The translations under genes and the position numbers were made by a program. From Halomonas sp. (GTDB lineage: Bacteria > Pseudomonadota > Gammaproteobacteria > Pseudomonadales > Halomonadaceae), in assembly GCF_017515565.1 (NCBI RefSeq), contig NZ_JAFWFN010000014.1, forward strand, positions 25,306 to 89,305: a DNA stretch of 64,000 bases. The letters run 5' to 3'. Below the pieces are notes generated by a model, which was not told the origin of the DNA, searched no databases, and worked only from the letters and a program-made list of their open reading frames with translations. This document shows, in pieces, positions 47,784 through 53,003 of this stretch. How positions within the stretch are numbered: position 1 is the stretch's first letter; every line of letters begins with the position of its first letter.

Positions 47784-49004
47784 CTACACCTTCCCTTGGT
47801 TATCTAGCTCCACCGCGTCATTCATGCGGGCCAGCAAATCGGGCACGGCGGCTTGAACTCGGTTCCAGCTGGGGATGAACGGACGCTCGCGGGGGTTATC
47901 CAAAAACAGGTTACCTGCCTCTAACAGGTTGCTGGCAAACAGCTCTACTGCCTGTTCTTCGCAATGCCGGTCCAAGCTGAGCCCGTTCATCGTGGCATCG
48001 TGATCGTAAGCTTCAATCAGGTCTAAGGCATAGCGGTAATAGGTCGCTTTTAGCGTGCGGAAGTCCTCGCTGCTAAAGCTCACGCCTTGGGTGGCGAGCT
48101 TGCGATACAGCGCCTTGGCGATATCCAGGCTCATACGATTAAGGCCGCCATTAGGGTCGTCTTCGCTCACCGGCTGGTGCTTGTGATCATAGGCATCGGC
48201 AATATCGACCTGGCACAGCTGCCTTGGCGCGTAGTTGCGCTGCAACTCGGAAAGCACGCCAATTTCAAGACCCCAATCTGCCGGTATACGTATGCCTTCC
48301 AGCACCTCACTGCGCATCGCAAACTCGCCGGAAAGCGGATAACGAAAGCTATCCAAATAATCTAAGTAAGGAAGTGACCCACACACAGTTTTAAGAGCGC
48401 GTATGAGCGGCGTTACCATCAGCCGTGACACGCGTCCGTTTAATTTCCCCTCTGCAATGCGGGGGTAATAGCCCTTACAAAAACTATAGTTGAACCGCGG
48501 GTGGGCAACGGGGTACATAAGGCGCGCCAATAACCCACGCTCGTAGGTGAGAATATCGCAGTCATGTAACCCCACCACCGATGACCGTCCTGAGGATAGA
48601 ATATAGCCTGCGCAGTACCATACGTTGCGTCCTTTACCCGGCTCCAGCGCGCCTAGCCCATGGCTTTCCAATTCGGCATCTAGCGCCTTTAACCGAGGGC
48701 CGTCGTTCCATAAAATACGAGTGTGCTGGGGTAAGCGTGAAAAAAACTCTCGGGCATATAAAAATTGGTCGCGGTCAGCGCGATCCAGCCCAATCACCAC
48801 TTCATTGAGATAGGGCACTTTAACTAATTCATCGACAATGGCAGAAAGCGCTGGCCCCTCTAGCTCTGAAAACAGCGAGGGCAAGATCAACCCCATGGGG
48901 CGCCGCTTGGCAAATTGGCAGAGCTCTTGCTCAAGCGCGTCAACTGAACGGCGCGTTAAGTTGTGGAAATCGGTAATCACGCCATTTTGATGGAAATCAC
49001 TCAT
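47784..49004 (-). CDS. gpgS: Glucosyl-3-phosphoglycerate synthase
   Basis: GT-A-fold glycosyltransferase (family GT81) that joins glucose from a nucleotide sugar to 3-phosphoglycerate. 406 residues. Visible: nucleotide-sugar entry LNEVVIGLDRADRDQF, the DxD-type metal motif in VGLHDCDILTYERG (about 147-149), acceptor region SGEFAMRSEVLEGIRIPADWGLEIGVL (shortened: PADWGLEIGVL), and a helical C-terminus with Asp/His-rich YDHKHQP. AAGGAG precedes the ATG. It follows gpgP after 49 bases in the same operon. Glucosylglycerate is a compatible solute under salt and low nitrogen. Confidence 0.86.
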   Translation of the reverse strand: MSDFHQNGVITDFHNLTRRSVDALEQELCQFAKRRPMGLILPSLFSELEGPALSAIVDELVKVPYLNEVVIGLDRADRDQFLYAREFFSRLPQHTRILWNDGPRLKALDAELESHGLGALEPGKGRNVWYCAGYILSSGRSSVVGLHDCDILTYERGLLARLMYPVAHPRFNYSFCKGYYPRIAEGKLNGRVSRLMVTPLIRALKTVCGSLPYLDYLDSFRYPLSGEFAMRSEVLEGIRIPADWGLEIGVLSELQRNYAPRQLCQVDIADAYDHKHQPVSEDDPNGGLNRMSLDIAKALYRKLATQGVSFSSEDFRTLKATYYRYALDLIEAYDHDATMNGLSLDRHCEEQAVELFASNLLEAGNLFLDNPRERPFIPSWNRVQAAVPDLLARMNDAVELDNQGKV

Positions 49005-49998: not shown

Positions 49999-50299
49999 AG
50001 CATCACCTATTTACCATCTTAAAAGCGTTTGTACACTTTTGTATTAAGACCTCACTCAACACGTCGTCTTCATACACAGATAAGCAAACAAGCAGATTAT
50101 ATGCCAATGAAAAATAGACTATAGATAACAATGAGATAAGAAAAAAAATGATGCGTGTTTATTTTGAGCACCAAAAAGGAGCAAAAGAGATGCACCCAAA
50201 AAGTGCAAAAAATCACTGAAGCAGAGTGCTGACCAGGGACGTGCGGACTGAATCAATCATAGGTTACGAGCAGCAAGGCTAAAATATTTGCACAAACCC

Positions 50300-50327
50300 T
50301 TGGCAAATTCTCTCAAATAGCTATACT
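50300..50327 (+). promoter_or_regulatory. Sigma70-like promoter of the sRNA candidate
   Basis: TTGGCA (50300-50305), 16-base spacer, TATACT (50322-50327). Each box matches five of six consensus positions. Transcription would start near 50334. Confidence 0.65.
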
Positions 50328-50333
50328 GACATT

Positions 50334-50431
50334 GTACTCACTGGCAGTCTTGTACACCCCCTCACCTGATGCCAGTGAGCTGCAGTGAGCCAAGCCCTTT
50401 AATGCCCGCCTCCCCCGGCGGGCTTTTTTTT
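50334..50431 (+). ncRNA. Candidate trans-acting small RNA with C-rich loop
   Basis: About 98 bases between a good promoter and a textbook terminator, with no reading frame. CTCACTGGCA (50337-50346) pairs perfectly with TGCCAGTGAG (50370-50379), displaying a 23-base loop that contains ACACCCCCTCACC. A C-rich loop of this kind could pair with Shine-Dalgarno regions. CAGTGAGC occurs twice (50373-50380 and 50383-50390), so the 5' arm could pair with either copy, giving two alternative folds. The RNA ends in the GC-rich hairpin plus eight U, the usual Hfq-type 3' end. No known family is recognised. Confidence 0.6.
50404..50431 (+). terminator. Intrinsic terminator of the sRNA candidate
   Basis: GCCCGCC (50404-50410), six-base loop, GGCGGGC (50417-50423), then eight T (50424-50431). 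It points along the plus strand, where there is no protein gene upstream. Confidence 0.88.
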
Positions 50432-51622: not shown

Positions 51623-52360
51623 GTGCGTATTCGTTTTATTTCATCCTCTAAAGTTCGTTTTTTACGCCCTGTTAGCTTAGGGCTTGCAAGCCTAATGCTA
51701 AGTGGTTGCTTTTATGCCAATACCTCACAGGCACCGGTGGCAACGACGTACCCTTACACAGAACAGCAGCGGATGCAGGCTGCCCAGCACTGGGGAGTTC
51801 TGGCCCAGCACGAGGCTGCCGGCATCTTACGCAGTGAACGCGTACGCTTTAGGGATTTACATATTCCGGCAGAAGAGCATGCCTACCTCAGCGCCTACAG
51901 CGGCGGCGAATTTGAACGCGGCTTCCGCACCCTGCTAACCAGTGAACTGGTTTCTAGGGGAGGCAGCGTAACTACCCAACCTCGCTCAGGCGGCGCAACG
52001 GTTCAGATCGATGTAGAAGTCGTTGAACACCGGGATCGTGGTTACATACGTCCGCCCTTTGGCACTTACACAGCACTTGCCAGCGGCATTGCGGTTGCCA
52101 CTATGCCACTACGCAACTGGAGTGAACCTGCTCTGGCATTAATTCCTGCCGCCATGCTAGCCGACACAACGACCGGTAGCTGGACGCATACGGGCAATGA
52201 GGAAATCATCGTCACCACGCAAATAATTGAGGAAGATCGTATTCTTTACTCATCTTCCAACATTTATTACATCAACGGGGGAGATCGTCGCCACTATGCC
52301 CCGCATCGCGTTCCCCAAGCACCTACTACGCCCACTGTTTCCATCACTGATACCTGGTAA
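51623..52360 (+). CDS. Lipoprotein of unknown function
   Basis: 245 residues with a GTG start and AGAAGGAA about eight bases upstream. A lipoprotein signal peptide ends in LMLSGC with Cys at 29. The mature part contains a FlgO-like alpha/beta segment (FERGFRTLLTSELVSRGGSVTT) and a possible membrane-like stretch, TALASGIAVATMPL. The C-terminus is strand rich (EDRILYSSSNIYYING). No family is firmly recognised. Its stop codon is part of the 18-bp repeat that carries the next gene's start, so the two genes are tightly linked. Confidence 0.75.
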   Translation: MRIRFISSSKVRFLRPVSLGLASLMLSGCFYANTSQAPVATTYPYTEQQRMQAAQHWGVLAQHEAAGILRSERVRFRDLHIPAEEHAYLSAYSGGEFERGFRTLLTSELVSRGGSVTTQPRSGGATVQIDVEVVEHRDRGYIRPPFGTYTALASGIAVATMPLRNWSEPALALIPAAMLADTTTGSWTHTGNEEIIVTTQIIEEDRILYSSSNIYYINGGDRRHYAPHRVPQAPTTPTVSITDTW

Positions 52361-52429
52361 CGCTATGTTTTCTAGTAACACTATGTCTTCCAATAACGCT
52401 ATGTCTTCTAGTAACGCTACATTTTTATC
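52358..52429 (+). repeat. 18-bp tandem repeat with stop and start codons, about 3.5 copies
   Basis: Four 18-base units run from 52358 to 52429: TAACGCTATGTTTTCTAG, TAACACTATGTCTTCCAA, TAACGCTATGTCTTCTAG and a diverged TAACGCTACATTTTTATC. The first TAA is the stop of the upstream lipoprotein gene. Units 1-3 each carry an ATG in the frame of the next gene, coding for MFSSNT, MSSNNA and MSSSNA. Confidence 0.92.
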
Positions 52430-53003
52430 TTTTACTTATTACTGTCGCTTTTTAGCGCGTAAAGCCAGCTTTTTACCACTGGTGTTAATGGCGCTGACAC
52501 TGGCAGGATGCGGCACCTTTGGCAACACAAACACCCAAACGGCGGAGCCTGAGCCCGACCTTTCCGATTTAGCCCACGCGGCTGCCAGTCAGATGGTAGC
52601 GAGCAACCCAGACATAACACGTTATAGCCCGATGATAGCGGCTACGTTTGTCAGCATCGACAATCTTAGCCAATCCTCAACGTTTGGCCGTATTAGCTCT
52701 GAGCTTATGGCCTCTGCCTTAGCACGGGAAGGCATGCAGGTACGTGAAGTAAAAATGCGCGACAGCATGTTCATCGAAGAGAGCGTAGGCGAGCTGATTT
52801 TATCTCGCCAAGTACAGCGATTAAGCGCCCAACACGATGCACGCTCTATCTTGATGGGCACTTATGCCCAAGGGCAAGACTACCTTTATGTCAGCGCACG
52901 GGTAGTTAGGACGGGTGATGCCATGGTGCTGGGTAGCGCCGACTTTAGAGTACACCTCAATAACAACACACGAAGTTTGTTAGAAGGCCAAGGCGGCTGG
53001 TAA
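52365..53003 (+). CDS. FlgO-family lipoprotein
   Basis: The frame is open from 52227, but the region from 52365 has three in-frame ATG codons in a tandem repeat; the third (52401) is closest to a proper signal peptide, ARKASFLPLVLMALTLAGC, with lipobox LAGC. The mature part matches the FlgO domain: SQMVASNPDITRYSPMIAATFVSIDNL, SSTFGRISSELMASALAREGMQVREVKM and YVSARVVRTGDAMVLGSADF (each shortened when matched). FlgO is an outer-membrane protein needed for flagellar stability in Vibrio. No flagellar cluster is next to it except the MotB-like gene. About 200-212 residues. Confidence 0.82.
   Translation: MFSSNTMSSNNAMSSSNATFLSFTYYCRFLARKASFLPLVLMALTLAGCGTFGNTNTQTAEPEPDLSDLAHAAASQMVASNPDITRYSPMIAATFVSIDNLSQSSTFGRISSELMASALAREGMQVREVKMRDSMFIEESVGELILSRQVQRLSAQHDARSILMGTYAQGQDYLYVSARVVRTGDAMVLGSADFRVHLNNNTRSLLEGQGGW

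Follow-up and report, generated by a model that had tools for sequence, protein, structure and literature searches.

Sigma-S-driven small RNAs (sRNAs) of the Hfq class include SdsR/RyeB and RgsA. The 6C-like RNAs are composed of two stem-loops with C-rich loops, and the RNAs that sequester CsrA/RsmA carry multiple GGA motifs in their loops. For the mycobacterial 6C sRNA/B11, the accessible part of one report describes that either C-rich loop is enough for the repression of a target whose 5' UTR carries a G-tract (PMC10470900).

Halomonas and Vreelandella form an industrial chassis group, and their natural sRNAs seem hardly described. The accessible parts of the Halomonas reviews mention engineered tools, including an imported Pseudomonas PrrF1 system (PMC13414033, PMC12164125). 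The published literature was searched, with subscription papers mostly outside the search, and no native Halomonas or Vreelandella sRNA of the kind described below was among the matches listed.

The locus analysed here lies in a stretch of 64,000 nucleotides from Halomonas sp. (the window). An earlier note, made from the letters of this DNA alone, had proposed a new self-contained sRNA gene, and the proposal is supported: no Rfam family is matched at the gathering threshold, and the promoter, stem and terminator are kept in relatives. The Rfam comparison included 4227 families over the whole 64-kb window and gave 0 matches at that threshold.

The locus and the parts of the predicted RNA

The predicted sRNA gene is located on the plus strand, and the earlier note was right that its neighbours, a gpgP-like and a MotB-like gene, are both on the minus strand. 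The divergent neighbour is a gpgP-like gene for a HAD phosphatase of the mannosyl-3-phosphoglycerate phosphatase family (TIGR01486; 49054..49998), and adjoining it is a gpgS-like gene (47784-49004), which scores below the curated cut-off of NF040724. The convergent neighbour encodes a MotB-like protein with an OmpA domain (PF00691) and a MotB_plug domain (PF13677; 50506..51519). The MotB-like gene is in turn divergent from overlapping plus-strand frames at 51623-52360 and 52227-53003, the latter with a FlgO domain (PF17680).

The layout proposed earlier, namely a plus-strand promoter, a 10-bp stem, a 23-nt loop, a duplicated CAGTGAGC and a GC-rich terminator with eight T, was confirmed at the coordinate level. 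The promoter (50300..50327) is composed of TTGGCA (50300-50305), a 16-nt spacer, and TATACT (50322-50327), which is preceded by GC (GCTATACT). The predicted transcript of about 98-99 nt (50333..50431) has its inferred 5' end 6-7 nt past the -10 hexamer. The 5' stem-loop (50337..50379) has the arms CTCACTGGCA (50337-50346) and TGCCAGTGAG (50370-50379), which are 100% complementary over 10 bp and enclose the C-rich loop of 23 nt (50347-50369); the loop segment ACACCCCCTCACC (50354..50366) is a candidate secondary seed. RNAalifold also predicted a short extra helix between the 5' end of the RNA and UGCA at 50381-50384. The copies of CAGTGAGC are at 50373-50380 and 50383-50390. The single-stranded linker CAGTGAGCCAAGCCCTTT (50383..50400) is the most conserved unpaired stretch and a candidate primary seed. 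The intrinsic terminator (50404..50431) consists of GCCCGCC (50404-50410), the loop TCCCCC, GGCGGGC (50417-50423) and the eight T (50424-50431). A self-complementary GUAC tetramer was observed at the 5' end of the RNA (UUGUAC), and GUAY is found again in the loop of most copies (50352-50355 in the window); loop-loop or dimer contacts through these tetramers are possible.

The fold of 50333-50431 has an energy of -37.6 kcal/mol (z = -4.6), and none of 200 shuffles was equally good. A single-sequence scan of 2.2 kb showed no excess over chance in either promoter-like sites (1 versus 1.4 expected) or terminator-like sites (3 versus 2.5 expected). Such strings are about as common in shuffled sequence, and therefore the case for an sRNA rests on comparison.

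Distribution and conservation in the genus

Long homologues (blastn, E < 1e-16; 201 genomes of the family searched) were found in 42 genomes of the same genus besides the window's own, and each of these 42 loci has a motB-like or gpgP-like match in the fetched stretch. A covariance model was built from 42 aligned copies (alignment A1, MAFFT); one of the 43 copies (L038) was left out because the contig ends inside it. The model matches 73 of the 82 genomes of the genus at E <= 0.01. One of these matches (G226) comprises the terminator only, at another place, and is a chance match; another (G221, locus L104) is a decayed copy, in which the -10 element and the terminator are both gone. With these set aside, 71 matched genomes remain, including two copies cut by contig ends (G102 and G218) and one with an enlarged, different loop (G224). 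The 72-locus set used for comparison excludes G226 and includes G221.

Both neighbours are in the expected orientation at 58 of the 72 loci, and at least one neighbour at 69. The motB-like gene is convergent within 1 kb at 63 loci, and the gpgP-like gene is on the expected side at 64; some of the missing neighbours are due to contig ends, others are real differences. The median distance from the 3' end of the predicted sRNA to the motB-like end is 37 nt in this set. The putative sRNA gene is kept at the same place by most close relatives, between the same two genes. Moreover, the exact pattern of promoter plus 5' end was matched by 45 public records, all labelled Halomonas, Vreelandella or Halovibrio.

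No model match was obtained in nine genomes of the genus, five of which have a motB-like gene above threshold. By eye, both neighbours are present in G121 and G162 with no sRNA seen between them; G230 has a short remnant with linker-like sequence beside a repeat, repeats fill the interval in G156, and the motB-like gene has a different neighbour in G138. The sRNA gene has thus disappeared from a few species, or they never had it. Repeats of the type GTGGGAGCTGAATTTATTCGGCGATGGCG... or TGTAGGAGGGCAGCTTGCTGC... were observed beside the motB-like gene at L103, L105 and L107 (G230, G156 and G226), loci that lack the sRNA or retain only a remnant of it.

Beyond the genus, no match above 36.5 bits was obtained in an order-wide scan of 390 genomes with the model. 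Among the 18 off-genus loci, eight were searched again and five alignments were viewed; the terminator matches best, and the pairs of the 5' stem are broken or missing. A second model, scanned over 275 genomes from 24 genera of the family, gave one off-genus match (G095, 34.6 bits), which is mostly terminator. The stretches beside the motB-like hits in other genera, some of which are paralogues, contained no such RNA by eye among the matches listed, and no match to the sRNA model was found in plasmid and phage records. Within the range of these searches, the predicted sRNA occurs only in the genus of the window, Halomonas/Vreelandella.

Within the 42 aligned sequences, the commonest base reaches a mean frequency of 89% across the RNA and 83% across the promoter, versus 48% upstream and 35% downstream. 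Lack of conservation of promoter, stem and terminator in relatives had been named by the earlier note as an argument against the gene; all three are conserved. The predicted promoter and intrinsic terminator are conserved, whereas the flanks are not, and these elements make the putative unit an independent one.

The covariation of the stem, suggested earlier as a check, is also found. Of the 12 pairs in the whole 5' helix, 8 show double compensatory changes in the model-fitted alignment, with the same picture on A1, and the top terminator pair covaries among GC, AU and GU, also with double changes. Across the whole structure 98.5% of the cells pair in the model-fitted alignment; in the terminator, 100% of the cells are paired on A1 and A3. 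Pairing fell below 50% when the partner was shifted by 1-3 bases. Double-change cells number 57 in the whole structure, compared with 12.4 for shuffles, none of which (0 of 500) came as high; for additional pair types, the count did not exceed that of shuffles (441 of 500 as high). Each of the eight pairs needs at least one compensated event, so relatedness alone is an unlikely cause. At column 4/54 a U-G pair is found in 57 of 65 sequences; the opposite strand would have C-A here, and this favours the plus strand as the functional one in the predicted unit. The predicted RNA shape is under selection, and the unit is a putative selected RNA gene. Computation establishes the unit, its conservation, its paired stem and its coding strand.

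The promoter pattern is likewise regular. CTTGG[CA]A and TATACT are each present in 68 of the 72 loci, and the spacer is 16 nt in all 68 loci that fit the two-hexamer pattern. The -10 hexamer is directly preceded by C in 71 of 72 loci, and this C by G or T in 68 of 72. RpoS is encoded in the same genome (TIGR02394, above its cut-off). According to the accessible part of a published account, the sigma-S consensus is KCTAYRCTTAA, and sigma-S promoters are generally thought to have no -35 consensus (PMC5650638). The -10 context (GCTATACT) would fit sigma-S as well as sigma-70; because the -35 element is conserved here, this fit is only a hint of sigma-S control.

The 23-base stretch at 50274-50296 was considered as an upstream operator. 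It matches, at 22 of 23 bases, a stretch upstream of a gene of relatives (L044-L048), and at 21 of 22 in others. The matched stretch in L044-L048 adjoins a TAGCCAAGGCTA palindrome, which is reminiscent of MntR boxes, and the gene downstream resembles, judging from its frame, a metal-binding ABC transporter protein. The operator reading was set aside because the stretch is not conserved among the relatives of the sRNA itself.

Linker, loop and candidate targets

The second copy of CAGTGAGC is kept as unpaired sequence within the linker. The 16 alignment columns from CAGTGAGCC on are 96% identical in the 42 sequences, versus an average of 84% for the loop columns, and the mean unpaired probability of the linker at 50387-50396 is 0.76. 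The linker is kept in divergent copies while the stem is rewritten, as AAGCCAAGCC in L106 and L203 and as GAACCAAGCC in L201 and L205. For example, the copy of G224 (L205:1588-1731) keeps the stem with other bases and has a longer insert with predicted extra hairpins in place of the C-rich loop, including its candidate seed segment; the linker and terminator are retained despite this foreign loop. The linker is not invariant, and L013, L034, L199 and others deviate. Because the linker is 96% identical though unpaired, and is kept where stem and loop change, the single-stranded stretch around GAGCCAAGCC is taken as the candidate primary seed and as a better candidate than the C-rich loop. The earlier note had placed the pairing site in that loop. 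This idea survives in part, since the loop is C-rich in most copies; its length and letters vary, it is replaced in G224, and the linker is better conserved. The C-rich loop might therefore be regarded as a candidate secondary seed.

Complements of the linker near an ATG numbered 123 in six genomes, versus 57 for the reversed-pattern control. With at most three mismatches, 23 complements besides the gene itself were found in 12 genomes, versus 6 for the control; base composition may cause this excess. The long form of the loop pattern showed little excess (107 complements, the gene itself included, versus 92 for the control in 12 genomes), and the shorter near-ATG form gave 591 versus 361. Seventy loci of the 123 near-ATG linker sites were examined, and 13 have a possible start nearby, mostly in apparently spurious frames. 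Some of these sites recur by letters in two of the six genomes, at no confirmable start. A linker complement near a start that we take to be UppS-like was seen in one genome only (L223). Eight of the 23 sites from the 12-genome search were also examined, four lying inside a long sense frame and four without one.

For the long form of the loop pattern, five loci were viewed. The loop complement GGTGAGGTGGTGTTC is present in 12 of 12 genomes and, at the two loci viewed, lies inside a long frame which we assume to resemble CarA; its recurrence is explained by the conservation of the CarA-like protein. Another complement, GGTGAGCGGGCGTAC, is found in 6 of 12 genomes and has no long sense frame at the one locus examined, and AGGGCTTGGCGCACCGCAG recurs in two genomes (L330 and L336), also without a long sense frame. 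No convincing recurrent complement of the linker or loop at a gene start was found among the sites examined. Pairing of the loop with the mRNA starts of the neighbours was no better than with single-base shuffles (mean z +0.3, n=37, and +0.1, n=38), some gpgP starts in this comparison being misplaced (e.g., L007 and L008).

Proposed action, alternatives and likeness to known RNAs

We consider it likely that the RNA is a trans-acting sRNA, which would act as an antisense RNA: the linker, and perhaps the C-rich loop as well, would form short base-paired stretches with mRNAs. RNA polymerase would start at about 50333 from the conserved promoter and end at the intrinsic terminator, giving an RNA of 98-99 nt. 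This RNA is predicted to fold into the 5' stem-loop, the single-stranded linker (GUGAGCCAAGCCCUUU) and the terminator hairpin, whose U tail could hold Hfq. Pairing in trans might then alter the translation or stability of the mRNAs. Hfq is encoded in the same genome (PF17209, E 1e-28); the sRNA is probably Hfq-dependent and its transcription possibly sigma-S-driven. A wider reading is offered tentatively and is, as a whole, rather doubtful: a genus-specific core sRNA driven by sigma-S, with two seeds (the linker GCCAAGCC and the C-rich loop), would serve in Vreelandella as a global post-transcriptional regulator of adaptation to stationary phase or to osmotic conditions, and would be lost or decayed in a few species.

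Other explanations of the conserved unit were also weighed. The RNA might act mainly by binding a protein, as titrator or scaffold, through its linker and stem and not by mRNA pairing. The near-identity of the unpaired linker would suit such a role, as would the lack of a convincing recurring mRNA complement at gene starts among the sites examined; however, antisense sRNAs just as typically have short, unpaired seeds that are conserved, and protein binding as the main action is considered unlikely. In particular, GGA is absent from 50333-50431 and occurs singly in some relatives (e.g., L020, L106 and L201), so the window RNA does not belong to the known type of CsrA/RsmA decoy. Less probable still is a purely cis-acting element that serves the convergent motB-like mRNA as an antisense or terminator region. 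The 3' ends lie so close that read-through from motB would produce a transcript complementary to the RNA. However, the RNA persists where the fetched stretch has no motB-like gene (L014, L032, L196 and L199), the T-run is on the plus strand only, and a terminator alone would need no conserved promoter, stem and linker.

The earlier note had also read the two copies of CAGTGAGC as a structural switch, in which the 5' arm alternates between them. In the window sequence both copies can pair fully and the energy gap is small: the alternative fold is less stable than the best one by 2.8 kcal/mol in the 98-nt form and by 3.9 kcal/mol in the 100-nt form. Of five summary measures taken for the alternative helix on A1, two are slightly higher than in shuffles, namely paired cells (equalled by 18 of 500 shuffles) and the covariation score (by 2 of 500). 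Double-change cells are slightly raised too (12 of 500 shuffles as high), and one of seven pairs has a both-sided change (4 sequences). The relatives argue against the switch, as full pairing of the 5' arm is seen with the second copy in 5 of 42 sequences and with the first in 37 of 42, and the distinguishing position has no standard pair in 33 of 41 distinct sequences. The first copy varies along with the 5' arm (CAGTGGG in 24 and CAGTGAG in 3 of 42), whereas the second is CAGTGAG in 36 of 42. Relative to the best fold, the alternative is less stable by 3.9 to 20.7 kcal/mol (median 10.9), and its helix has a pair probability of at most 0.003 in the 42 sequences. A switch is hence given almost no credence; the window copy may have a minor alternative fold with a small energy gap, which is not a conserved feature. 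Hardly any chance is left either to a micropeptide of 18 codons, read from a TTG at the predicted 5' end of the window copy. Its frame (MYSLAVLYTPSPDASELQ) is open in the window copy, and an 18-codon frame is present in only 14 of the 42 aligned copies. Counted from the 5' end, AGCCAAG starts in each of the three phases (20, 17 and 5 of 42, including copies without these letters), since indels, many of them in the C-run, shift the conserved linker between phases. The TTG lies at or before the predicted RNA start, which leaves no room for a ribosome-binding site, and the stem changes are compensatory. A reading frame is not conserved in the predicted unit, and the absence of one claimed earlier is right in substance.

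A native sRNA that has covariation support and a clear seed candidate, whose promoter is conserved and whose natural losses in relatives allow comparison, would be a good entry to post-transcriptional control in Halomonas and Vreelandella. The best Rfam scores of the window sRNA are sub-threshold: 20.6 bits for ncS025 (RF02869; gathering threshold 46) and 20.2 bits for anti-hemB (RF02837; 49.5), and alpha-r14 (RF02344) scored 17.2 bits (58.8). The likeness to these three families consists of a 5' stem plus a GC terminator, in weak matches whose alignments to the window sRNA rest largely on the terminator. The likeness to the 6C sRNA/B11 is the C-rich loop; however, the window sRNA has one C-rich apical loop before the terminator and not two (the 6-nt loop of the terminator is also C-rich), its loop shows less conservation than the linker and has given way to another in one relative, the organism is unrelated, and there is no Rfam match. 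With the Hfq-class trans-encoded sRNAs of Gammaproteobacteria, the window sRNA shares the intergenic location, a length of about 100 nt, its own promoter, a 5' stem-loop, a conserved single-stranded stretch, and an intrinsic terminator with a U tail, together with Hfq and RpoS in the genome; it differs from the named members in matching no Rfam family at the gathering threshold. On these comparisons of sequence and predicted structure, the window sRNA is filed as a putative new family within a known kind, the small regulatory RNAs, and not as a member of a named family.
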